26,310 nucleotides of DNA from a virus. Below the pieces are notes generated by a model, which saw only the letters and a list, made by a program, of their open reading frames with translations, did not search any database and had not been told where the DNA came from. The number at the start of each line of letters is the position of its first letter. Within the stretch, counting starts at the first letter, position 1. This document shows positions 2,746 to 22,777 of the stretch, one piece after another. Location: positions 1-26,310 of IMG/VR virus record IMGVR_UViG_3300025647_000231; one strand, given 5' to 3'. The translations under genes were made by a program, and so were the position numbers.

Positions 2746-2936
2746 AGATCAAGGCCGAGATGGGTGCTTATTCCAGCGTGGTGGGCAACAGCGTCCACCT
2801 GATCGCGGATGATGGGCGGATGATCGGACAGGTGGCGATCCTGTGCCACACTGACGATCTGCGAGGCAAGGAAACGCAGACCGAGCTTTGCCGGGTGATC
2901 TGTGACGCGATCAACGCGGAGGCGACCGATGGGTGA
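2742..2936 (+). CDS. hypothetical protein (64 residues)
   Basis: The start at ATG 2742 follows a strong GAGGGGAAGGA and overlaps the previous stop (ATGA). The protein reads MKIKAEMGAYSS then a beta-type stretch (VHLIADDGRMIGQVAIL) and a short helical end (LCRVICDAINAE). It resembles many short phage accessory proteins of unknown role, and I cannot name a family. Its 3' end overlaps the next small gene by eight bases. Confidence 0.6.
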   Translation: MKIKAEMGAYSSVVGNSVHLIADDGRMIGQVAILCHTDDLRGKETQTELCRVICDAINAEATDG

Positions 2937-3081
2937 CGCGATCTGGAGGGCGTTGGCGATGCTGCCTGGACTGCCCGAGCTGGGGGCGTATCCCACGCCG
3001 CTGGAGTGTGCCGAGGCGGCGGATTACTTCGCTGGGTTCCTCGGGGTGGCGGTGCAATGCTTCGCGGCGGTGTCGGCATGA
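2929..3081 (+). CDS. hypothetical 50-residue protein
   Basis: A short gene between two better-sized ones. The ATG at 2929 has GGAGG six bases upstream and overlaps the preceding stop. Translation gives a 50-residue protein beginning MGDAIWRALAMLPGLP and ending AVQCFAAVSA, with a hydrophobic, Ala-rich C-terminal half. The stop overlaps the next start (ATGA at 3078), which fills what would otherwise be a gap in the overlapping chain. No family recognised; function unknown. Confidence 0.55.
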   Translation: MGDAIWRALAMLPGLPELGAYPTPLECAEAADYFAGFLGVAVQCFAAVSA

Positions 3082-3356
3082 GCGAGGCCATGTTCATCTG
3101 CGAGGGGTGCGGCAAGGTCTATCCCGACACCTGCCCGACGTGCCCAGATCGAGGCGACGGCCGGGGCGTGACGGTCCACCAGATCAAGCAGGCGCTACGC
3201 GACAGCCCGACGGTGGGAGACGTGAACCATGCGGCCAAGCACTACGGGCGGCACGTTGCGATCCTGGTGCGCGAAGGCGGCGATGCTCGAACGATGGCGA
3301 TCCAGATCAAGAACCTGGCAAGCTATCGCCGCTGGGAGTTGGGGTATCGGCCATGA
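3078..3356 (+). CDS. small zinc-ribbon protein
   Basis: This 92-residue protein has an N-terminal CxxC-x7-CxxC pattern (Cys8, Cys11, Cys19, Cys22; CEGCG and CPTC), the signature of a small zinc ribbon. After it comes a helical, basic region (HQIKQALRD, HAAKHYGRHVAIL) that could contact nucleic acid. I chose the ATG at 3078 because it overlaps the previous stop as ATGA, although its ribosome binding site is weak. An ATG at 3060 in the same frame is an alternative. DNA or RNA binding is a reasonable guess from the fold but is not shown. The stop overlaps the start of the nuclease gene. Confidence 0.6.
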   Translation: MSEAMFICEGCGKVYPDTCPTCPDRGDGRGVTVHQIKQALRDSPTVGDVNHAAKHYGRHVAILVREGGDARTMAIQIKNLASYRRWELGYRP

Positions 3357-3769
3357 GTAACCGCATGACAGCCGCCCAGCTCCAGGCGTTCTACAAGGCC
3401 GACGGCGACCACAGCGCGCCGCGCCAGGACCGCGAGGGGCCGATCCACAAGGGCATCCTCCAGCTCCTCGATCTCGCGTTGCCAGGCGATGCGATCTACC
3501 ACCACAGCCCGAACGAGCTGGACATGGCCGGGGCCGAGGCCGCGCGCCAGATCGCCAAGGCTCGCAAGCTGGGCACCAAGCCAGGCTGGCCGGATATCGA
3601 GATCATCTGGCAGGGCCGAGCTTACTTCCTGGAGGTCAAGGCCGACAGCAGCCAAAGCGATGCGCAGAAGGATATCCAGCGCGACCTGGTGCGGGCCGGT
3701 GCGAGCTATGCCGTGGTGCGATCCGTCACCGAGGCCGAGGCGATACTGAAATCCTGGGGGCTTACATGA
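3353..3769 (+). CDS. VRR-NUC-like PD-(D/E)XK nuclease
   Basis: This 138-residue protein matches the small phage VRR-NUC nucleases. It has an N-terminal helix (EGPIHKGILQLLDLAL, about 28-43), the motif GWPD with Asp81, then a strand carrying Glu94-Val-Lys96 (YFLEVKA), followed by a Gln/Asp-containing helix (about 98-110). Asp81, Glu94 and Lys96 are the expected metal-binding and catalytic residues. VRR-NUC enzymes act on branched DNA structures. In a phage this could serve recombination or clean-up of packaging or replication intermediates. The much longer open frame upstream is discarded. ATG 3353 overlaps the previous stop (ATGA) and has GGGAG/GGGG upstream. The nuclease fold is well supported, the exact substrate is not. 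Confidence 0.8.
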   Translation: MSNRMTAAQLQAFYKADGDHSAPRQDREGPIHKGILQLLDLALPGDAIYHHSPNELDMAGAEAARQIAKARKLGTKPGWPDIEIIWQGRAYFLEVKADSSQSDAQKDIQRDLVRAGASYAVVRSVTEAEAILKSWGLT

Positions 3770-13253: not shown

Positions 13254-13823
13254 ATGGCAACAGTTTTCATGGCAATCGGGACGGCCGTATCCAGCGCCGC
13301 CGCTTCCGTCGGGACGCTCTTTGCAGGAGCTGGTGCAGCAGGGGCCGGGGCAGGTGCTGCGGCGGGCGCTGGGGCCGCTGCGGCGGGCTCCGGTGTCGTC
13401 ACGCTGTCCCAGGTGTTGAGCGCCGGGTCGGCCCTGGCGGCAATCGGGCAGGGCGTGGCCGCGAGCCGGGCCGCGAAGGATCAGGCGGCGTTCGCCAGGG
13501 TGCAGGGGCTCCAGGAGCAAGCCCAGGGCGCGGCGCAATCGCGTGACCTGGCGCGGGAATATGCCGAGCTGACCGGCGAGCAAAAGGTGATCCAGCTCGC
13601 CAACGGCCTCGATATCGGGATCGGCACGCCGGTGAACGTGGCCGAAAGCACCAAGCGCTTGGCCGAGCGGAACCTGGACGTGACCAGGAGCAACGCGGAC
13701 AACCGCGCCGCAATGTCCCGCCTTCGGGCGCGGGGCCTCATGTCCGAGGCGCGATCCTCGATGCTGGCGGGCTTCGGCCGTGCGGCACAGATCGGCGTCG
13801 ATGCGTATCAACTGACGGGGTAA
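13254..13823 (+). CDS. internal virion protein, T7 gp14-like
   Basis: A 189-residue protein, nearly the size of T7 gp14, which is ejected first and forms a pore in the outer membrane. The first 75 residues are hydrophobic and Gly/Ala-rich (MATVFMAIGTAVSSAAASVG onward), suitable for membrane insertion. The rest is an Ala/Arg/Gln-rich helix (ASRAAKDQAAFARVQGLQEQ) followed by DIGIGTPVNVAESTKRLA and a final helix with LMSEARSSMLAGFGRAAQIG, typical of gp14-like proteins. ATG has a strong GGAGG. It heads the ejection gene block and lies nine bases after the gp12-like stop. Confidence 0.75.
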   Translation: MATVFMAIGTAVSSAAASVGTLFAGAGAAGAGAGAAAGAGAAAAGSGVVTLSQVLSAGSALAAIGQGVAASRAAKDQAAFARVQGLQEQAQGAAQSRDLAREYAELTGEQKVIQLANGLDIGIGTPVNVAESTKRLAERNLDVTRSNADNRAAMSRLRARGLMSEARSSMLAGFGRAAQIGVDAYQLTG

Positions 13824-13826
13824 ACC

Positions 13827-16800
13827 ATGCCTTCAATTCGCCGCTACGGCCCTGCCCTTGTCACTCCCCAGGTTTCGCCTCGCGCGGAGCTTGGCCGTGG
13901 GCGCGAGCAGACCTTCGCCGCCTTCCAGGATATCCTTGGATCGGCCAATAGCTTCATCCGCCCGGCCGTCGAGCAGGTGCAGACCGCACGCGGCGAGCAA
14001 GAGGCTTTAGCCGCGGTTGACGAGCGCGGCCCACAGTGGGGCCTGCGGCAGCTCCAGGGGCGCGGCACGTCGGTGACGATGGGCGCGCAGGGGGATGGGC
14101 TCCAGCCTGGCCCTACGCGCGTCAGGGCGGCTATCGCGCGCGCTGGCGAGGCGCACGGCGTCGATCCCGGCGTCTTGTCCGTGATTGCCAGCCTCGAAAG
14201 CAGCTTCGACCCGAACGCCCAGAACCCCAGCAGCTCGGCCGGTGGCCTGTTCCAGTTCATCGACGGCACGGCCGCGCAATACGGGCTCGAAAACCGCTTT
14301 GACGTGGACCAGGCGGCGGATGCGGGCGCGCGCTTCACGCGGGACAATATGTCAACGCTTGCCACGGCGCTGGGCAGACAGCCGACCGTGGGCGAGATTT
14401 ACCTGGCGCACCAGCAGGGCGCGCAAGGCGCGATCAACCTCCTGACGGCACCAGCTCCCATGCTGGCCTCGGCCGTTGTCGGGCGCGAGGCGGTGCGGCT
14501 GAATGGCGGCAACCCCGACACCATGACGGCGCGAGACTTTGCGGCGCTTTGGATCGACAAGGCGAATGAGCGCGCGGGGCGCGAGGGCATCACCGTGACC
14601 GTGCCAGGCACGCCGGAGTATGAGCTGGAGACGCTGAACAGCTCGACCTTCGAGCCTCGTATGCCGTTCACGGTTCGGGACGCAGCGTTCAACCGGGCGG
14701 CGGATCGCGTGATTACAGCTCGGGCGCAATCGGCGCTTGAGGAGGGGATGCGCGCGGCGATGCAGCGGGCCGATGGCGATATCGGCAAACTGCGCGAGGA
14801 GATGGAAAGCGTGCGGGCGCAAGTCATGTCCGAGCTTCCCCAGGAAATGCCGGGCCTGGCAACCGAGCTGCAAGCGCAGTTCGACCGGGGCAGGATCGCA
14901 GCAGAACGCCAGGCAATCGAGCTTTCCCAGCGCCGCGTGATGGCGCGCCAAGAGGAAGCCTTGGGGCAGATCGTCACCACGACGCGCTCCGAGGCCGAGC
15001 GCCTGGCGCTGACCGGCGCGACAGCGGCCGAGCTGGCGGATCACATGGCCCAGGCAACCGACACCCTGGCGCAGTTCGGGCCGCGCGAAGGCTTCGAGAT
15101 CGCCGGGCGCGTCTATCCGGCAGACCCGACACGCGCAGGCACCATGTCGGCCGACGCTATCGCCTCGAACATGGCCGAGATCACGATGGGCGCGCGGCGC
15201 ATGATGATCGAGGCGGACTTCATGCGCTCGGCCGCGCCTGGTCAGTATGTGGACGAGTTCCGGCGGCAGGTGTTCTCCGGCAATTCTCCCCTGCCTGCGG
15301 GCGAAAGCCTGGAGATGCTGCGCTCGATGGAAAGCCGGGCACGCTCGGCCGAAAGCGCGCGACGGACTGCGGCGGAAGCGGAGCGGCGGCGTCTTGAGCA
15401 GGGGATGCGCGACACGATCAACGCCTATGTGTCGATGGGCGAGGCAGGCGTGCCGGTGGCGATCCCGCAAGAGGAGCGCGCGCGCATCCTGGCAGCTCTT
15501 TCCCCGTTCCCCGATCTCCAGCGCGAGGCGCAGATGGAGTTCCAGGTGGCCGACGCCCAGGTGGCAACGCACGGCATGACGGGCGACCAGCTTATGAGCT
15601 ACGTCGAGCGCATCCGTGGCGACATGGCCGACGCAGCCGAACGCGGCGAGCTGGACCTGGGCGGCGCGGCTATCATCGAAAGCCTCCAGGACCGGATCAA
15701 GCAGGTGCAGGACGCGGTGACGGCCGAGACGATTGGCCTGCCGCTGATCGAGCAACTGGCGCTCAACGGCGGCACGGCCGACGAAGTGGATTATGATGGG
15801 CTGCGCGCCCAGGCTGCGGGCAACGAGGAGGTGCTGGCCGCGATCAACGAGGTCGAGGCTTTCCACCGCGACGTTGAAAGCCTGCAAGGCATGAGCGCCG
15901 CCCAGCGTGAGGTGGTGCTGGAGGATGCACGCGGCGCGCTCACTGTTCTGGCTGCGCAGGGGCAGCGCTACGGGGCCGAGGCCCTGACAACCCAGCGCGT
16001 GATCGAGCGATTGAGCGAGTGGTCCGATCACCGGCGCGGCATGGCTGCGGATGATCCGGCGCGCTTCGCCCGTTCGGTCGGCGTCGAGCTGCCGAGCTTC
16101 GAGGGGGCCGAAACGATGGACCAGGTGGGTGCGGTCATTGCCGAGCGCGTCAACCTCCTGGCACCGCACACGCGGCCGGAGGGTGTGGATCATCCGGTGC
16201 CGCTGACCCAGGCCGAGCTGGACCAGATTTCCGAGGTGTTTCAGAACAGCTCGCGCGGGCAGCGGGCAGCGTTCGTTGGCGCGGTGGCCGAGATGGGCGA
16301 GGATCAGGCGATGGCGGTGTTCTCCAGGATCGGGCAAGCCGAGCCGGTGATCTACGCGGCCGGGGCGGTCTACTCGATGGGCAATCAGCAGGCGGCGGGC
16401 GTGATCCTGCGCGGTGCCGTGGACACGCGCCTGGATGGCGGCAGCTCCACCGACCTGGCAACGGCGCGCGAGGTGGCCCTGGGGCCGCTCCTGGAGGCCG
16501 ACATGATCGCGCCCGAGGGCATCCGCGACCTGGACACCACGGCGCTGGCCTACGCGCGCGGCCTCGCGCTGGCAGAGGGTGGCCGAGCTATCGAGGCAAG
16601 CGACCTAGAGACGGGCTACCAGATCGCCCTGGGGCAGCAGGCAGACGGCACCGGCGGCATGGCCGAAACCCGGTATGGCACCACGCTCCTGCCGCCTTCC
16701 TGGGATCGTCGCCGCGTCAACCGGGCAATCGGTGGGCTGACCGACGAGACGCTGACGCAGCTCGCGCGCGGCATGGTGGTGGATCGGTTCGGACGGCCGT

Positions 16801-16958
16801 TTTCGGCGCGCGAGCTGGAGCGCTCCATCGAAGGGCTGCGGCCGTCGCCTGACGATCCGCACATCCTGGTTCCGGTCGATGCTGACGGCAACGTGTTCCT
16901 GACCGACAACGGCGACCAGCGCGGCATCCTGACCTTTGATCTGCGGGAGTTCGAGTGA
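13827..16958 (+). CDS. internal virion protein with lytic transglycosylase (SLT) domain
   Basis: A 1043-residue ejection protein that should cut peptidoglycan so the DNA tunnel can cross the cell wall. A lysozyme-like SLT domain lies at residues about 100-210. The catalytic Glu124 is in ASLESSF, followed by SSSAGGLFQF (135-144) and YLAHQQGAQG (192-201), the usual third SLT motif. The remaining 800 residues are long, Ala/Glu/Arg-rich helices (QSALEEGMRAAMQRADGDIG and similar), fitting a rod- or tube-forming core protein. The start is ATG 13827, three bases after the previous stop, with a G-run and TAA as a weak ribosome binding site. It occupies the gp15/gp16 position of T7-like phages. Confidence 0.85.
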   Translation: MPSIRRYGPALVTPQVSPRAELGRGREQTFAAFQDILGSANSFIRPAVEQVQTARGEQEALAAVDERGPQWGLRQLQGRGTSVTMGAQGDGLQPGPTRVRAAIARAGEAHGVDPGVLSVIASLESSFDPNAQNPSSSAGGLFQFIDGTAAQYGLENRFDVDQAADAGARFTRDNMSTLATALGRQPTVGEIYLAHQQGAQGAINLLTAPAPMLASAVVGREAVRLNGGNPDTMTARDFAALWIDKANERAGREGITVTVPGTPEYELETLNSSTFEPRMPFTVRDAAFNRAADRVITARAQSALEEGMRAAMQRADGDIGKLREEMESVRAQVMSELPQEMPGLATELQAQFDRGRIAAERQAIELSQRRVMARQEEALGQIVTTTRSEAERLALTGATAAELADHMAQATDTLAQFGPREGFEIAGRVYPADPTRAGTMSADAIASNMAEITMGARRMMIEADFMRSAAPGQYVDEFRRQVFSGNSPLPAGESLEMLRSMESRARSAESARRTAAEAERRRLEQGMRDTINAYVSMGEAGVPVAIPQEERARILAALSPFPDLQREAQMEFQVADAQVATHGMTGDQLMSYVERIRGDMADAAERGELDLGGAAIIESLQDRIKQVQDAVTAETIGLPLIEQLALNGGTADEVDYDGLRAQAAGNEEVLAAINEVEAFHRDVESLQGMSAAQREVVLEDARGALTVLAAQGQRYGAEALTTQRVIERLSEWSDHRRGMAADDPARFARSVGVELPSFEGAETMDQVGAVIAERVNLLAPHTRPEGVDHPVPLTQAELDQISEVFQNSSRGQRAAFVGAVAEMGEDQAMAVFSRIGQAEPVIYAAGAVYSMGNQQAAGVILRGAVDTRLDGGSSTDLATAREVALGPLLEADMIAPEGIRDLDTTALAYARGLALAEGGRAIEASDLETGYQIALGQQADGTGGMAETRYGTTLLPPSWDRRRVNRAIGGLTDETLTQLARGMVVDRFGRPFSARELERSIEGLRPSPDDPHILVPVDADGNVFLTDNGDQRGILTFDLREFE

Positions 16959-19900
16959 TGGCAAGACTGGTTCAGCTTCAGCCAATTGATCCTGGCGCAA
17001 CGGCAGGGCCGAGAGCGACGTTTGGTGAAGCCGCTGGCGCAATGTTCGAGCGCGAGCAAATGGTCGGAGAGCTTGGTTCCAGGAACCGATTTCTGAATGA
17101 GGTCTACGATCCGTTCATTGGCTACTTCAACAGCACTATCCGACCAATGGCACCAGACTTGTTTTCCTACGGTGTCGAGAACAGCGCTCGCGCTCCTAAC
17201 AACTCGCCTATTTCGTTGGAGACGTTCCAGGCAATTCAAGATCAAGGATTTCATCCAGACGAGGAAACCCTGACGCGGTTTATAGGGGAGTTGGAGGCGG
17301 CTGGCGTTGCCTATCCTGCCGAGATTGCGCCGTCTGCCTTTTTTGATCGCCGTGAACAAATGGAGCAGGAGCTTTTAGGTCGCGTCGAGCGCGAGGATGA
17401 AATCCTGAGACGGAGCCGGGGCGCATCTGGCCTCGCCGGGCAGCTTGTCGGGGGCTTTGGCGCGGGCTTCGACAACATCGAAAGCATTGTGACCCTGCCC
17501 GTCGGGGCGGCATCGCGGGCTGGCATCCTGGCAACAGCGCTGATCGAGGGCGGGATCAACGCGGCAACCGAGGCCGCGACGACGCCAACCCGCAACCGCT
17601 TCCTGCGCGACCTCGGGCTTCCCGAGGAAAGCATCTTGGAAAACGCGGCCTTCGGTTTTGCGGTCGGCGGCACGCTCGGCGGCGGGCTGCGCTCGATCAC
17701 CAGGCTGGGCGAGGTGGTGCGAGATCGGCGCGCGTCTTTGATCGAGGTGGCAGATGCCTCGGGCGATGCGGAGCTGCAAACTTTGGCACAGGCTGTCAGG
17801 CGCGACGTGGAGGACGAGGAGGCCGGTGCGAGCGATGGCGACCCCACAGGGCTGCGCGAACACCAGGAGCGCGCCCAGACGGCCGCACAGGCGGCGCACG
17901 AGGGTGGCGTGCCCGACATGCCCGACCGGCCGACCTTCGCCACGCCGCGCGCCTCGATCCTGAATGGCGAGATCGAGGAGGTGGACCCGCGCGATCTCCT
18001 GGTGCAAGCCGACGTGTTTCAGTTCAAGAGCGAGATCGTGGGCGAAGGCGGCGTGACGCCCAAGCTCCTCAACGTGACAGAGTGGCGACCCGAGCGCGCG
18101 GGGATCACGCTGGTCTATGAATACGCCGACGGATCGCGGGCAGTGGCCGATGGGCACCAGCGCACGGCGCTTGCCCGGCGGATCATGGAACAGACCGGAG
18201 ACGAGATCAGGCTGGCCGCGCGCGTGTTCCGCGAGATCGACGGCTTTACGGCCGAGGACGTGCGGGTGCTGGCGGCACTCAAGAACATCTCCGAGGCAGC
18301 GGATGGCATGACGGCCGCGATGGCGCGCGATGCTGCCCGCGTGCTGCGCGTTCGGCCCGACGCGATCTCCGAGCTTCCGGCCGGTCCTGGCATCGCCCGA
18401 GCGCAATCGCTGGCGCGGCTGTCCGACGAGGCGTTCGATATGTTCATCAACCAAGTGGTGCCCGAGCGCTTCGCGGAGCTTGTGGGCAGGATGGTGGACA
18501 ATCCCGAGATGCACGCGGCCATGATGCAGCTCTTGCGGCGCACCGGACCCGAGACGACGGCCCAGGCCGAAAGCATATTGAGCCAGGCGCTACAGGCTCC
18601 GGTGTCGCGCGAGATCACGGCCGACCTTTTCGGGGAACAAGAGGTTGTGGAAAGTCTCTACCTGGAGCGGGCCAAGGTGCTGGAGCGGGCCATGCGGATC
18701 ATGCGCGATGATCGCAGCGTGTTCCGCACCCTGGACGAGCGCGCGGATCGCATCCAGGGAACCGGCGGGAACCGCCTGGACACAGCGACGAACAAGCAGA
18801 CCAGGCAGAATGTGGAGCAAGCCCTGGCGGCGGTGCAGCGCCTGGCGCACCGGGCCGGGCCAATATCGGAGGCGTTGAACGATGGCGCGAAAGGCTACAA
18901 AGAAAACGGCCGGCTCAAAGACGCCGCCCAGCGAGTTGCAGATGCTGTCCGACAAGAGGTTGAGCGAAATGGCCTCTCTGGGGCAGGAGCTGGCGCTTCT
19001 GGACGCAATGCAGAACCTGCGCGTGCGAGCGCAGCGGCACCTGATCCCGTCCTCGAAGGCTTCTCGGACCCGGTAAACGGGGCGGGCGTGCGTGCCCAGA
19101 TCGCAAACACCAGGATCGAGCCAGCGGCCGAGCCGAGGATTGAGCGCCTGCCCGACATGGACACGGCCGAGGCGGCGCAGCTCGAAGCCGGATTGAAAGC
19201 AGCCCAGGCGATCCGCGACGTGGATGATCTGATGGAGCGCGGCGCGCGCAACCATGTGGAGCTGACGCGCGAGATCGAGATGGCGGCGCGGGATGCTGGC
19301 GTGACGGCCAGGGCGGCACCGCTCAAGGGGCGCGAGCGCACCGAGCAAAAGGTGCGGGACAAGTATGCGGGCGACGTGAACCGCGTCACCGACGTGGCGC
19401 GCGGTGGTGTCGATGCCCCGACGCCGGAAGCGGCCGAGGAGTTCGTGACGATCCTGGCGCGCCGGTATCGGGTTCTCGATGAAGGCTGGAACGTGGTCGA
19501 GGGGGGATACTTCGACCGCAAGCTGACGGTGGTTTTCGATGATGGGCAGCTCGGGGAAGTTCAGCTCTGGGTGCCGGGCATGTTCGAGGTCAAGGAAGCT
19601 CGGGGGCACAAGCTCTACGAGGTCTACCGCGATCTGTCACGGCCAGAGAATGAGCGGATGCAGGCGCTGGCCGACATGGAAGCGCTCTATGCGGGTGTGA
19701 TGGACAAGCTGCCGCCGCAATGGCGCTCGATCTTGGGTCAGGAAACGCCTGGCATGGAAGCGCCCAGCCGGGCCACGACGGAGACGAACACCTCCTCGGA
19801 CACCTCGGGCGATCCTTCATCGGAAAGAACCTCGGCCGGGGATACGTCCGACCAGGTGCCGTCGGAGCCAAGCAGCAGCATGGAGCCTGGTTCCGGCTCC

Positions 19901-20302
19901 AGCGCAGGGATGGAGCGGTCAACTAGAAAAAATCTCATGGGGGATACCTCCTCTCCTGATGTAAGCAACAATGGTCGGACTGTCAACACGGAGCGGACAA
20001 GCGCCGGTGAGCAGAGCCTGTTCGACGGGATTGAGCCTATCACGGAACGCACCAGGCTTGACCAGCGCGCATCGCAGCCGCTCGGCCGGGGTGGCGGCGC
20101 TGCCGATGATACCGAGATCGGCGGGCTGTTCGATCCGAACGATCCTAGTCGGTTCGACCTGTTCGACGCGGTGCCGGTGGCGCGTGGGTTCGATGATGAA
20201 GGCAACGAGATTGCCGTGGTGAAGTCTCGCGCCGATCTTGCGGCCGAGTTGGATGCTGACGACGAGGCGGTGGCCGTCCTCGATCTCTGCGTGAAAGGGT
20301 AA
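16958..20302 (+). CDS. large polyvalent ejection protein with DdrB-like ParB and RelA/SpoT-like domains
   Basis: A 1114-residue protein in the ejection block. Residues about 158-240 are Gly/Ala-rich and amphipathic (LAGQLVGGFGAGFDNIESIV, FGFAVGGTLGGGL), as in other ejected proteins. Residues about 342-442 match the ParB-superfamily domain of phage P1 DdrB-type proteins: VFQFKSE, LVYEYADGSRAVADGHQRTA, with Asp398-Gly-His-Gln-Arg402. Residues about 785-905 resemble a RelA/SpoT nucleotidyltransferase: Lys790/Lys798, DVARG (Asp812, Arg815), GGYFDRK, the EVQ motif (Glu867) and GHKLYE (His884). A Ser/Thr-rich linker (about 930-1020) leads to a short acidic tail ending in Cys-Val-Lys-Gly. ATG 16958 is preferred to GTG 16955 because GGGAG fits it and it overlaps the previous stop. 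Activity is inferred, not shown. The first 440 bases have lower GC than their surroundings. Confidence 0.75.
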   Translation: MARLVQLQPIDPGATAGPRATFGEAAGAMFEREQMVGELGSRNRFLNEVYDPFIGYFNSTIRPMAPDLFSYGVENSARAPNNSPISLETFQAIQDQGFHPDEETLTRFIGELEAAGVAYPAEIAPSAFFDRREQMEQELLGRVEREDEILRRSRGASGLAGQLVGGFGAGFDNIESIVTLPVGAASRAGILATALIEGGINAATEAATTPTRNRFLRDLGLPEESILENAAFGFAVGGTLGGGLRSITRLGEVVRDRRASLIEVADASGDAELQTLAQAVRRDVEDEEAGASDGDPTGLREHQERAQTAAQAAHEGGVPDMPDRPTFATPRASILNGEIEEVDPRDLLVQADVFQFKSEIVGEGGVTPKLLNVTEWRPERAGITLVYEYADGSRAVADGHQRTALARRIMEQTGDEIRLAARVFREIDGFTAEDVRVLAALKNISEAADGMTAAMARDAARVLRVRPDAISELPAGPGIARAQSLARLSDEAFDMFINQVVPERFAELVGRMVDNPEMHAAMMQLLRRTGPETTAQAESILSQALQAPVSREITADLFGEQEVVESLYLERAKVLERAMRIMRDDRSVFRTLDERADRIQGTGGNRLDTATNKQTRQNVEQALAAVQRLAHRAGPISEALNDGAKGYKENGRLKDAAQRVADAVRQEVERNGLSGAGAGASGRNAEPARASAAAPDPVLEGFSDPVNGAGVRAQIANTRIEPAAEPRIERLPDMDTAEAAQLEAGLKAAQAIRDVDDLMERGARNHVELTREIEMAARDAGVTARAAPLKGRERTEQKVRDKYAGDVNRVTDVARGGVDAPTPEAAEEFVTILARRYRVLDEGWNVVEGGYFDRKLTVVFDDGQLGEVQLWVPGMFEVKEARGHKLYEVYRDLSRPENERMQALADMEALYAGVMDKLPPQWRSILGQETPGMEAPSRATTETNTSSDTSGDPSSERTSAGDTSDQVPSEPSSSMEPGSGSSAGMERSTRKNLMGDTSSPDVSNNGRTVNTERTSAGEQSLFDGIEPITERTRLDQRASQPLGRGGGAADDTEIGGLFDPNDPSRFDLFDAVPVARGFDDEGNEIAVVKSRADLAAELDADDEAVAVLDLCVKG

Positions 20303-20305
20303 GAC

Positions 20306-22777
20306 ATGAGCCTTCGAGACTGTATCAATCGCGCGGTGGCCGGTGGCGAGATGGACCGCGAGCGCGCCCAGCGCGTGCTTCGGGAATACGACAACGCCTT
20401 CCGCGAGTTTCAGCGCAGCATGGGCTACACCCAGGCCGAGATCGAGGCCGCGCGCGCCGTCGCCGGTAAGGCTCGGGCCGAGGCTGCGGAAAAGCGCCGG
20501 GTGATGCAGCTCCAGGCGGCGGCAAGCCAGCGCCAGATCGAGCGCATCCAGCGGCACCGGAATATCCGTGGCGAGCTGGACCCTGGGCAATACCTGCAAG
20601 ACCTGGTGTCAAACACGCGCGGCGCGGCAGGCTCGACCCTGGCGGGCAAGTATGAGGCGGTGCGGCGCAGCTTCCGGCGCGACATGACGCAGGCGGTGCA
20701 GGCGTTCCGTGCGAACCTGGTCGGCAATCGGCGCAAGCCCGAGATGCTGCGCAAGGTGGTGCGCGAGGTGTTTGGCGAGGACAGCGGAGACGCAGGCGCG
20801 CGCGCGATCGCACAATCATGGGCCGGGGTGGCAGAGAAAGCGCGGCTCCGGTTCAATGCGGCTGGCGGGCATGTGGGCAAGCGGGCGGATTGGGGGCTTC
20901 CGCAGGCACACGATGCGGCCAAGGTGCGTAAGGCGAGCTATCAGGAGTGGCGCGATTTCATCATGCCGCGCCTCGATCTCGACGCGATGGGCCGGGACTT
21001 CAACAACGGTCTGGCCTTCACGCCGGAAACGCTGGAGGTGCTGATGAAGGACGCCTACGAGGCGATCCGCACCGACGGCTATTCGCGCCGCTCGCCTGCC
21101 GCGCGCTATGGCTCGGCCATGTATAACCGGCGCGCCGATCATCGGTTCTTCAAGTTCCGCTCGGCCGACGACTGGATGGGATATTCCGAGCGCTTCGGCA
21201 GCGGGCAGGATGCGTTCCGCGTGATGATGGGCCACCTCGACAACATGGCGATGGATATCTCGATGATGGAGGAGATGGGGCCAAACCCATTCCACACCTT
21301 CCGGTATCTGTCCGACGCAGCGCAGCAGCTCGCCAGCCGCTCGGCCGAGCCCGACGCGCTGGACAAGGCTCGGCGCAAGTCGAAGGTGGCCGACGATATG
21401 CTGGACCTGTTCACCGGCCGCTCCAACATGCCCCAGAACGCAGGCTTTGCGCGCGGGGCCTCTGCCCTTCGGAATTACCTGACGAGCGCGCACCTGGGCT
21501 CTGCGGTGATCTCCAGCGTCACGGACTTCAACACCCAGCGGATCGCTGCCGGGTTTGTCGGCATGTCCAAGCTCGGGTTCATGCGCCAGCTCGGACGGCT
21601 TGCCACCTCGCGCGACATGCGCGCCCAGGCAAACGAGGCCGGGCTGATCTTCGAGAACGCGGTCGATATCGGCAACGCGGTGGCGCGCTACGAGATGGAG
21701 GAGATGCACGTCGAGGCGGCGGCGCGCATGGCTGACTTCACGATCCGCGCCTCGGGCCTGGGTTGGCTGACGGAGGTGCAGCGACAATCTTTCGGGCTGG
21801 AGTTCATGTCCCAGGCGTCGAAGTGGAAGGCGGGCTCTTGGGGCGATCTTCCGGCGCGCACGCAGCGCATGTTCAAGAGCTACGGGATCGGGGAGAACGA
21901 CTGGCCGGTGATACAGCGGGCGCGGCTGCACCAGACTGACAACGGGCTCCAGCTCCTGCGCGCCCAGGAGATCGAGGAGGCGGGCGATGCGAGCGTGGCG
22001 GATCGCTACATGGAGGCGATCACCAGCCTGACCGAGTTTGCGGTGCCCAGCACCAACATTTTCGGCAAGGCAATGGTTCTCGGCCGCACGCAGCCTGGCT
22101 CAATCTCGGGCGAGTTCCTGCGCTTCGGGCTACAGTTCAAGAGCTTTCCCGTCACGATGCTGGTAACGCAGTTCGGCCGGATCATGGCAGAAGCCTACCA
22201 GGGACGGCCGGGATCGGCTCTGTCCTACGCGGCCGGGCTCCTGGTCGGCAACACGATCTTGGGCGCGCTGGCGATCCAGATGAAGGAGACGGCCAAGGGA
22301 CGCGATCCGCGCGACATGGGCAGCGCCGAGTTCTGGACGGCCGCGATTGCCCAGGGCGGCGGCGCTGGCATCTTCGGGGATTTCTTCTTCTCTGACGTGA
22401 ACCGCTTTGGAGGCGGGATCGCGGAAACGCTGGCCGGTCCAGGCGTGGGTTTCCTGGATGATATGCTGCGCTTCACGGTCGGCAATGCGCGCGAGCTGGC
22501 GCTTGGCGAGGAGACGCGCGCCGGGCGCGAGTTTGTGCAGCTCTTGCGCAATTACACGCCTGGCGGATCGCTTTGGTATCTGCGCCTGGCCTACGAGCGC
22601 GAGGTGCTGGATCAGCTCCAGCAGGTTCTCGATCCAGATGCAGCGCAGTCGTTCCGTCGCCGCGTTCAGAGCGCGCGCGAGTATGATACTCAATTCTTCG
22701 CGCCGCCCGGTTCCTCTGTTATACAGGGGCGAGGCTCGGTTCGGGCACCAGATGTAGCAAACGCTTTCGGAGGGTAA
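20306..22777 (+). CDS. large internal virion/ejection protein, function unknown
   Basis: An 823-residue protein, largely helical and charged (GKARAEAAEKRRVMQLQAAA), with a recurring pattern seen in phage ejection blocks: LRNYLTSAHLGSAVISSVTD in its middle, then a long Met/Glu-rich region and a hydrophobic stretch near residues 637-660 (LSYAAGLLVGNTILGALAIQ). Near the C-terminus a Gly-rich segment (AETLAGPGVGFLDDM) is followed by NYTPGGSLWYLRLAYER. I know this type only as conserved hypothetical proteins beside portal and polyvalent genes, so the ejection role rests on position and composition. ATG 20306 follows the previous stop by three bases, with AAGGG ahead. Confidence 0.65.
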   Translation: MSLRDCINRAVAGGEMDRERAQRVLREYDNAFREFQRSMGYTQAEIEAARAVAGKARAEAAEKRRVMQLQAAASQRQIERIQRHRNIRGELDPGQYLQDLVSNTRGAAGSTLAGKYEAVRRSFRRDMTQAVQAFRANLVGNRRKPEMLRKVVREVFGEDSGDAGARAIAQSWAGVAEKARLRFNAAGGHVGKRADWGLPQAHDAAKVRKASYQEWRDFIMPRLDLDAMGRDFNNGLAFTPETLEVLMKDAYEAIRTDGYSRRSPAARYGSAMYNRRADHRFFKFRSADDWMGYSERFGSGQDAFRVMMGHLDNMAMDISMMEEMGPNPFHTFRYLSDAAQQLASRSAEPDALDKARRKSKVADDMLDLFTGRSNMPQNAGFARGASALRNYLTSAHLGSAVISSVTDFNTQRIAAGFVGMSKLGFMRQLGRLATSRDMRAQANEAGLIFENAVDIGNAVARYEMEEMHVEAAARMADFTIRASGLGWLTEVQRQSFGLEFMSQASKWKAGSWGDLPARTQRMFKSYGIGENDWPVIQRARLHQTDNGLQLLRAQEIEEAGDASVADRYMEAITSLTEFAVPSTNIFGKAMVLGRTQPGSISGEFLRFGLQFKSFPVTMLVTQFGRIMAEAYQGRPGSALSYAAGLLVGNTILGALAIQMKETAKGRDPRDMGSAEFWTAAIAQGGGAGIFGDFFFSDVNRFGGGIAETLAGPGVGFLDDMLRFTVGNARELALGEETRAGREFVQLLRNYTPGGSLWYLRLAYEREVLDQLQQVLDPDAAQSFRRRVQSAREYDTQFFAPPGSSVIQGRGSVRAPDVANAFGG

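Follow-up and report, generated by a model that had tools for sequence, protein, structure and literature searches.

What does a 1114-residue protein do when its gene lies, to judge from gene order, among the ejection proteins of a podovirus? This question is raised by an open reading frame in a 26,310-base virus record (IMG/VR record IMGVR_UViG_3300025647_000231; GC content approximately 65%), the whole of which was analysed and is referred to as the window. The original prediction, made from the sequence alone, had described the product as a probable ejected polyvalent protein with a DdrB-like ParB domain, active against host defence; the reading frame itself, its VADGHQRTA motif and residues D398-G-H-Q-R402 are exactly as described there. 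Our analysis points, with a probability of roughly 0.6, to a virion-packed, ejected carrier with a ParB/Noc-like core and an exchangeable payload, predicted in this phage to be a Tas1/Apk-like 3'-pyrophosphokinase. The following features bear on this reading:

16958..20302, + strand: gene for the ParB-core ejection-module protein with cargo slot (open reading frame translation, alignment)
17963..18307, + strand: ParB/Srx-superfamily domain, residues 336-450 (AlphaFold2 model, fold matches)
18149..18163, + strand: DGHQR motif, D398-G399-H400-Q401-R402, within VADGHQRTA (translation, alignment)
18311..18607, + strand: predicted ParB/Noc-like helix-turn-helix (HTH) DNA-binding domain, residues 452-550 (fold match)
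18608..19057, + strand: beta hairpin and helical region, residues 551-700, where the conserved core ends (alignment, model)
19178..19747, + strand: cargo, a Tas1/Apk-like alarmone synthetase domain, residues 741-930 (PDB profile search, fold)
19391..19393, + strand: D812, catalytic Asp position in TDVAR (57/57 distinct sequences)
19556..19558, + strand: E867, catalytic Glu in GEVQ (56/56 sequences with a residue there)

The payload, residues 741-930, is a second domain that the original prediction had missed, and Pfam gives no match within it. A profile of 16 cargo homologues found Tas1 (PDB 6ox6) at 5.8e-13, and phmmer with the cargo sequence of the window alone found it at 3.7e-7. The cargo model (predicted local distance difference test score, pLDDT, 93.8) is likewise closest to Tas1 (VIA Z 16.2, 2.8 A, 163 residues), followed by SaEAS (Z 14.9) and then by ppGpp synthetases. 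Judged by sequence homology and its predicted SYNTH fold, the cargo is a Tas1/Apk-like alarmone synthetase with catalytic Asp and Glu intact; its dN/dS (ratio of nonsynonymous to synonymous substitution rates) of 0.08-0.17 reveals purifying selection. The closest solved relatives, with which it shares fold and active site, are the type VI secretion system effector Tas1/Apk1 (PDB 6ox6) and the exported alarmone synthetases (PMC12691689), and its predicted product is (p)ppApp. Pfam lists neither RelA_SpoT nor ParBc for the window protein; PDB profile searches and folds are the basis of the domain calls.

The slot that holds this domain follows the core and precedes a constant C-terminal tail, and its cargo is repeatedly swapped and lost. 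A search of viral contigs yielded 99 distinct homologues, complete or almost so, in which cargo was sorted by motif and profile; loci were retrieved with DGHQ and FQF motif patterns, and conservation at both motifs is therefore partly by construction. While the counts depend on the contig sample and some related contigs may be near-duplicates, the slot holds a synthetase alone in 42 homologues, a divergent synthetase in 6, a synthetase with an added domain in 6 and a Zeta-toxin kinase in 26, and is empty in 19, one of which (L140) has on inspection an ADP-ribosyltransferase (ART)-like domain under the Pfam cut-off. Those Zeta assignments that were checked by Pfam score over the cut-off (5.1e-15 to 3e-19), and the Zeta domains retain the P-loop. 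A tree of 36 cores requires at least 13 changes of cargo state. A synthetase-bearing contig (L042) and a Zeta-bearing contig (L061) are 97.0% identical over the 7.9 kb before the cargo and 98.5% identical over the 2.5 kb after it; in another pair with different cargo (L039 and L052), identity is 97.6% before and 95.9% after the cargo, and other differences occur only several kb downstream and near the contig ends. Losses have left traces: one (L041 to L054) is an in-frame deletion joined at a GATGATA repeat, and another (L003-type to L009) retains the linker remnant PSSARTSDGDMSNQV. Assembly chimaeras are an unlikely source of the swaps, because both the cargo-less and the Zeta type turn up in several independent assemblies, and the joins, where examined, are in frame and of microhomology type. 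Such near-identical natural phage pairs, differing mainly in payload, make what an injected enzyme does for the phage directly testable.

Slot contents also include extra unrecognised domains beside the synthetase (L172, L188 and L192; SRTEGY/TRIEGY type and VYRVG type), for which Pfam matches were unconvincing. L057 and L102 appear by eye to have an extra ParB-like cargo; no Pfam match supports this in L057.

The core on which the cargo is carried belongs to phrog_10691 (PHROGs, 1.9e-46), a family with function unknown, and no Pfam family matches residues 330-700. Its AlphaFold2 model was built from 29 homologues (mean pLDDT 70, higher in the domains; predicted template modelling score, pTM, 0.50). 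ParB/Noc chains match this model at VIA Z 8.9-10.8, Noc at Z 10.8 over 189 residues (Foldseek 7e-5), and sulfiredoxins at Z 5.6-6.7; the HTH domain alone, with a model pLDDT of approximately 72-92, matches the Spo0J-parS and Noc-NBS DNA-binding domains at Z 9.1 each. Because the model matches ParB/Noc structures including their HTH domains, the core is best described, on its predicted fold, as a ParB N-domain followed by an HTH, arranged as in chromosomal ParB and Noc. That fold is the basis of the ParB call, since searching PDB sequences with the core (hmmsearch) gave nothing useful. R402 is kept in 110/110 sequences, although the retrieval patterns included part of the motif and its conservation is thus partly by construction; N443, which lies outside those patterns, is found in 111/111 and belongs to a KNI (442-444) that by eye resembles the ParB ENIQR box. 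The core has a dN/dS of 0.05-0.18. It shares with the ParB/Noc CTP-switch DNA-binding proteins an N-terminal ParB domain and then an HTH (predicted fold), but differs in having GHQR rather than GERR and in belonging to a virion module, and no partition context was seen in the window.

Is this protein likely to travel in the virion? Its neighbours are:

13254..13823, + strand: phrog_418 internal virion protein, two genes upstream (PHROGs 6.6e-7)
13827..16958, + strand: SLT transglycosylase protein of 1043 residues, directly upstream, T7 gp16-type function (Pfam SLT 3.9e-10)
20306..22777, + strand: phrog_684 virion structural protein, epsilon15/phiV10-like, directly downstream (PHROGs 4e-170)

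The window runs from terL through portal (Head-tail_con), capsid, tail, phrog_418, the SLT protein, the ParB-core gene and phrog_684 to fibre/spike and amidase. On these annotations, the gene belongs to the ejection-protein module of a podovirus of epsilon15 type, the kind of neighbourhood that had been claimed for it. For TerL and phrog_684, Dunaliella viridis virus SI2 is near and epsilon15/phiV10-type phages are more distant. The frame encodes 1114 residues from its ATG, and a GTG at 16955 would add one; its start overlaps the upstream stop (TGATG), and the phrog_684 gene begins three bases past its own stop. It is clearly a genuine gene, because close and distant homologues exist along the chain and dN/dS in the core is low. 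A core 85% identical to that of the window is present on a contig in a Rhodobacteraceae metagenome-assembled genome.

The same core occurs in named phages as well: in the Prochlorococcus phages P-SCSP1g (L020 4645-12336) and P-SCSP1u (L073 4961-12652), an unannotated 2,563-residue protein carries the ParB-HTH core, with NGHNR replacing DGHQR, in the gp16 position after tail and internal-protein genes. Two internal virion proteins had been guessed by the describers of these phages from gene size and position only (PMC9860041), and in the literature searched on them we found no proteomics for P-SCSP1u. A large unannotated marine cyanophage protein thereby gains a domain annotation. In Ruegeria phage 45A6 (L019 3790-12888), a 3,912-residue polyvalent protein combines the ParB-HTH core and a GEQ linker motif, described below, with helicase, methyltransferase and GNAT domains.

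In the mechanism that we favour, the protein would be packaged into virions alongside the SLT protein and the other internal proteins, and its core, predicted to bind nucleotide and DNA, would keep it on the phage DNA. It would probably enter the cell with the first DNA, where the cargo would turn ATP/ADP into (p)ppApp (or, less likely, make (p)ppGpp or modify tRNA). Host ATP would then be drained and host metabolism braked during phage takeover, presumably to the benefit of the phage, and in the producing cell the synthetase would have to be kept inactive by some means. A wider proposal is offered tentatively, at less than even odds: in immunity-less podoviruses, one ejection protein may serve as an interchangeable carrier, its ParB-like core on the DNA delivering a poison enzyme (synthetase, Zeta kinase, perhaps ADP-ribosyltransferase) that is inactive in the producer and active in the next cell.

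Several points weigh against the delivery of a synthetase by an ejected carrier. Virion presence and ejection are deduced from gene order and the accompanying domains. If active, a synthetase produced late in infection would be expected to poison its producer, and the (p)ppApp toxins characterised from phages come with immunity genes (PMC12226406). Homologues without cargo exist, and the cargo is therefore dispensable. The core model is of only middling confidence, and the GHQR of the core differs from the GERR of CTP-binding ParBs, which makes its predicted nucleotide binding uncertain.

With respect to immunity, no adjacent gene fits, because the next virion gene overlaps or starts no more than 4 bases from the stop in 95/97 homologues. 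A covarying immunity gene was also considered and rejected, since none adjoins the cargo; the L039 and L052 contigs differ otherwise only at the places given above. HD_4, the family to which an immunity protein hydrolysing (p)ppApp would be expected to belong, was found in none of ten related records, which are mostly fragments, and immunity elsewhere in the genome is possible; HD_4 is present beside the MuF-position synthetase of pneumococcal phage K13. A tyrosine integrase (PF00589) was found in none of 11 records, window included, most of them fragments, with serine integrases outside the search. In one contig (L005 2-4630), the ParB-core gene lacks a stop before the next virion gene, giving one fused frame. 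Read-through of the stop codon, at which this contig hints, was rejected, as the next gene is in frame in only 10/97 homologues.

A different account, which we consider unlikely but worth stating, is that the cargo acts in the producing cell: made late, it would stop host metabolism or exclude superinfecting phages, the ejection-module site being merely a convenient late-expressed place. The late-gene position and a cargo that is both dispensable and exchangeable would suit this account, and delivery into the next cell is itself deduced from gene context. However, in these loci a constant core precedes the cargo and a constant tail follows it within one ejection-module protein, and an ATP-draining enzyme in the producer would cost progeny.

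The ejected-carrier reading could also hold with a different enzymatic product. The cargo may be a tRNA 3'-CCA pyrophosphokinase of the FaRel2/CapRel type, or a (p)ppGpp maker, hitting translation or the stringent response and not ATP. Product is not reliably readable from sequence, the cargo matches the CapRel fold at Z 12.1 (FaRel2 more weakly, at Z 6.6-7.7), and SaEAS, whose fold matches closely, produces (p)ppApp as well as (p)ppGpp (PMC12691689). We nevertheless hold this improbable: Tas1 ranks first or level with SaEAS by sequence and fold, and in tblastn the nearest known phage relatives are pneumococcal minor head proteins at the MuF position, which are of the Apk2 kind and make only (p)ppApp (PMC12226406).

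That the ParB domain is itself a DdrB-like polyvalent effector against host defence, as originally proposed, now seems very improbable. The ParB/Srx alpha+beta fold, the conserved Arg and the virion neighbourhood agree with it; features in common with P1 DdrB are ParB superfamily membership, a conserved active-site Arg and phage head association. The DdrB-like assignment of the core is rejected, however: at E <= 10, ddrB-ParB of Pfam (PF18763) matched neither the window protein, core region included, nor six related records, while the control, P1 DdrB, scored 2.1e-39 and the viral protein L198, with the same cargo, 5.7e-32; hhalign of the core alignment with P1 DdrB gave 0.2% probability; no sequence or profile similarity between the two is detectable; and an HTH domain follows, as in ParB/Noc. 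DdrB-like ParB domains are marked by an Asp/Asn that ends strand 2 and by an extra helix with a conserved Tyr; here D398 ends a strand and no conserved Tyr is seen after it, but its strands could not be aligned by number with those of the published figure. Membership of the ParB superfamily thus survives by fold, and the DdrB-like label does not; likewise, the idea of an effector fits the Tas1-like domain better than the ParB core, and nothing points specifically to host defence. Contig L198 (3-5420) encodes a true ddrB-ParB polyvalent protein of 1806 residues that also has a Tas1-like domain, i.e. the same cargo on another ParB carrier.

Least credible is a purely structural protein with an enzymatically dead passenger, for while many homologues lack cargo, the catalytic Asp and Glu are invariant, the cargo is under purifying selection (dN/dS as given above), and the Zeta alternatives retain their P-loop and score over the Pfam cut-off.

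How does the ejected-carrier reading compare with known systems? Already characterised are the MuF toxins carried by temperate phages, which have (p)ppApp synthetase domains and are accompanied by two immunity proteins (PMC12226406, PMC5576092). Those of Apk2 type likewise place a Tas1/Apk-like (p)ppApp synthetase on a phage capsid-associated protein and combine variable toxins with a constant carrier (PMC5576092, PMC12226406). There the carrier is MuF, with the toxin at the very C-terminus, in temperate phages, whereas here the carrier is ParB-HTH and the cargo is internal, with a constant tail after it; no MuF domain was matched by Pfam at E <= 1 in the window protein. A small probable immunity open reading frame follows MuF toxins in 89% of cases, and apk2 is followed by iapK and aph1, whereas here no adjacent immunity gene fits. 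Nor was a tyrosine integrase found in the records searched, unlike what temperate phages would suggest.

In 2017, Iyer et al. described polyvalent proteins, some of them with RelA/SpoT or ParB domains (PMC5512222). These are large, multi-domain and virion-linked, as here, with ParB, RelA/SpoT, GNAT and ART all listed, and Zeta-like kinases are mentioned for MuF proteins and conjugative elements. The window protein, in line with the multi-domain polyvalent type first proposed for it, unites disparate domains in one virion-linked protein (ParB-HTH and synthetase; Zeta or GNAT in others), but its ParB core falls outside their DdrB-like family, and one conserved slot with swaps between near-identical phages is not described in the text of that paper covered here. 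A 2025 survey of exported alarmone synthetases (PMC12691689) covers Sec, type VII and type III secretion systems, MuF, extracellular contractile injection systems (eCIS) and Rhs/PAAR carriers; podoviral ejection proteins are not among them. We found no description of the ParB-core carrier in the literature searched, most subscription journals being outside coverage. Polyvalent proteins are already known, as are (p)ppApp synthetase toxins on MuF carriers; a ParB-core carrier with swappable cargo and no adjacent immunity appears to be undescribed in that literature. It would extend virion toxin delivery from MuF proteins of temperate phages with immunity genes to podovirus ejection proteins, apparently with none beside the toxin.

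Outside core and cargo, the protein comprises:

16958..17398, + strand: divergent N-terminal segment, residues 1-147, with several alleles in close relatives (alignment; dN/dS approximately 0.3 in most pairs)
17399..17737, + strand: Gly-rich hydrophobic/amphipathic region, residues 148-260, retained in distant homologues (BLAST, hydropathy)
19982..20062, + strand: TERTSAGEQSLFDGIEPITERTRLDQR linker motif, residues 1009-1035, also in Ruegeria phage 45A6 (BLAST, motif sort)
20108..20299, + strand: constant C-terminal tail, residues 1051-1114, ending in a conserved Cys motif (BLAST, homologue comparison)

BLAST matches to distant homologues start at approximately residue 148. The Gly-rich amphipathic region noted in the original prediction is present at approximately 150-260; its best 19-residue hydropathy window reaches only 1.5, and amphipathic is therefore a fair label for it, transmembrane not. 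A linker motif like T-x-x-G-E-Q-x-L-I-x-G-V recurs between cargo and tail in ten other loci (L036, L037, L057, L102, L104, L106, L141, L142, L145 and L016) and is possibly a putative processing or joining site. The short tail with its Cys motif terminates nearly all of the 99 homologues, and their C-termini (window residues 1095-1114) have endings such as EDAMIARLEFCTI or DDEAVAVLDLCVKG, with one Cys close to the end; this ending is perhaps a putative packaging signal. Elsewhere in the window, positions 2933-3769, between terL and portal, weakly match families of phage endonucleases and Holliday junction resolvases.
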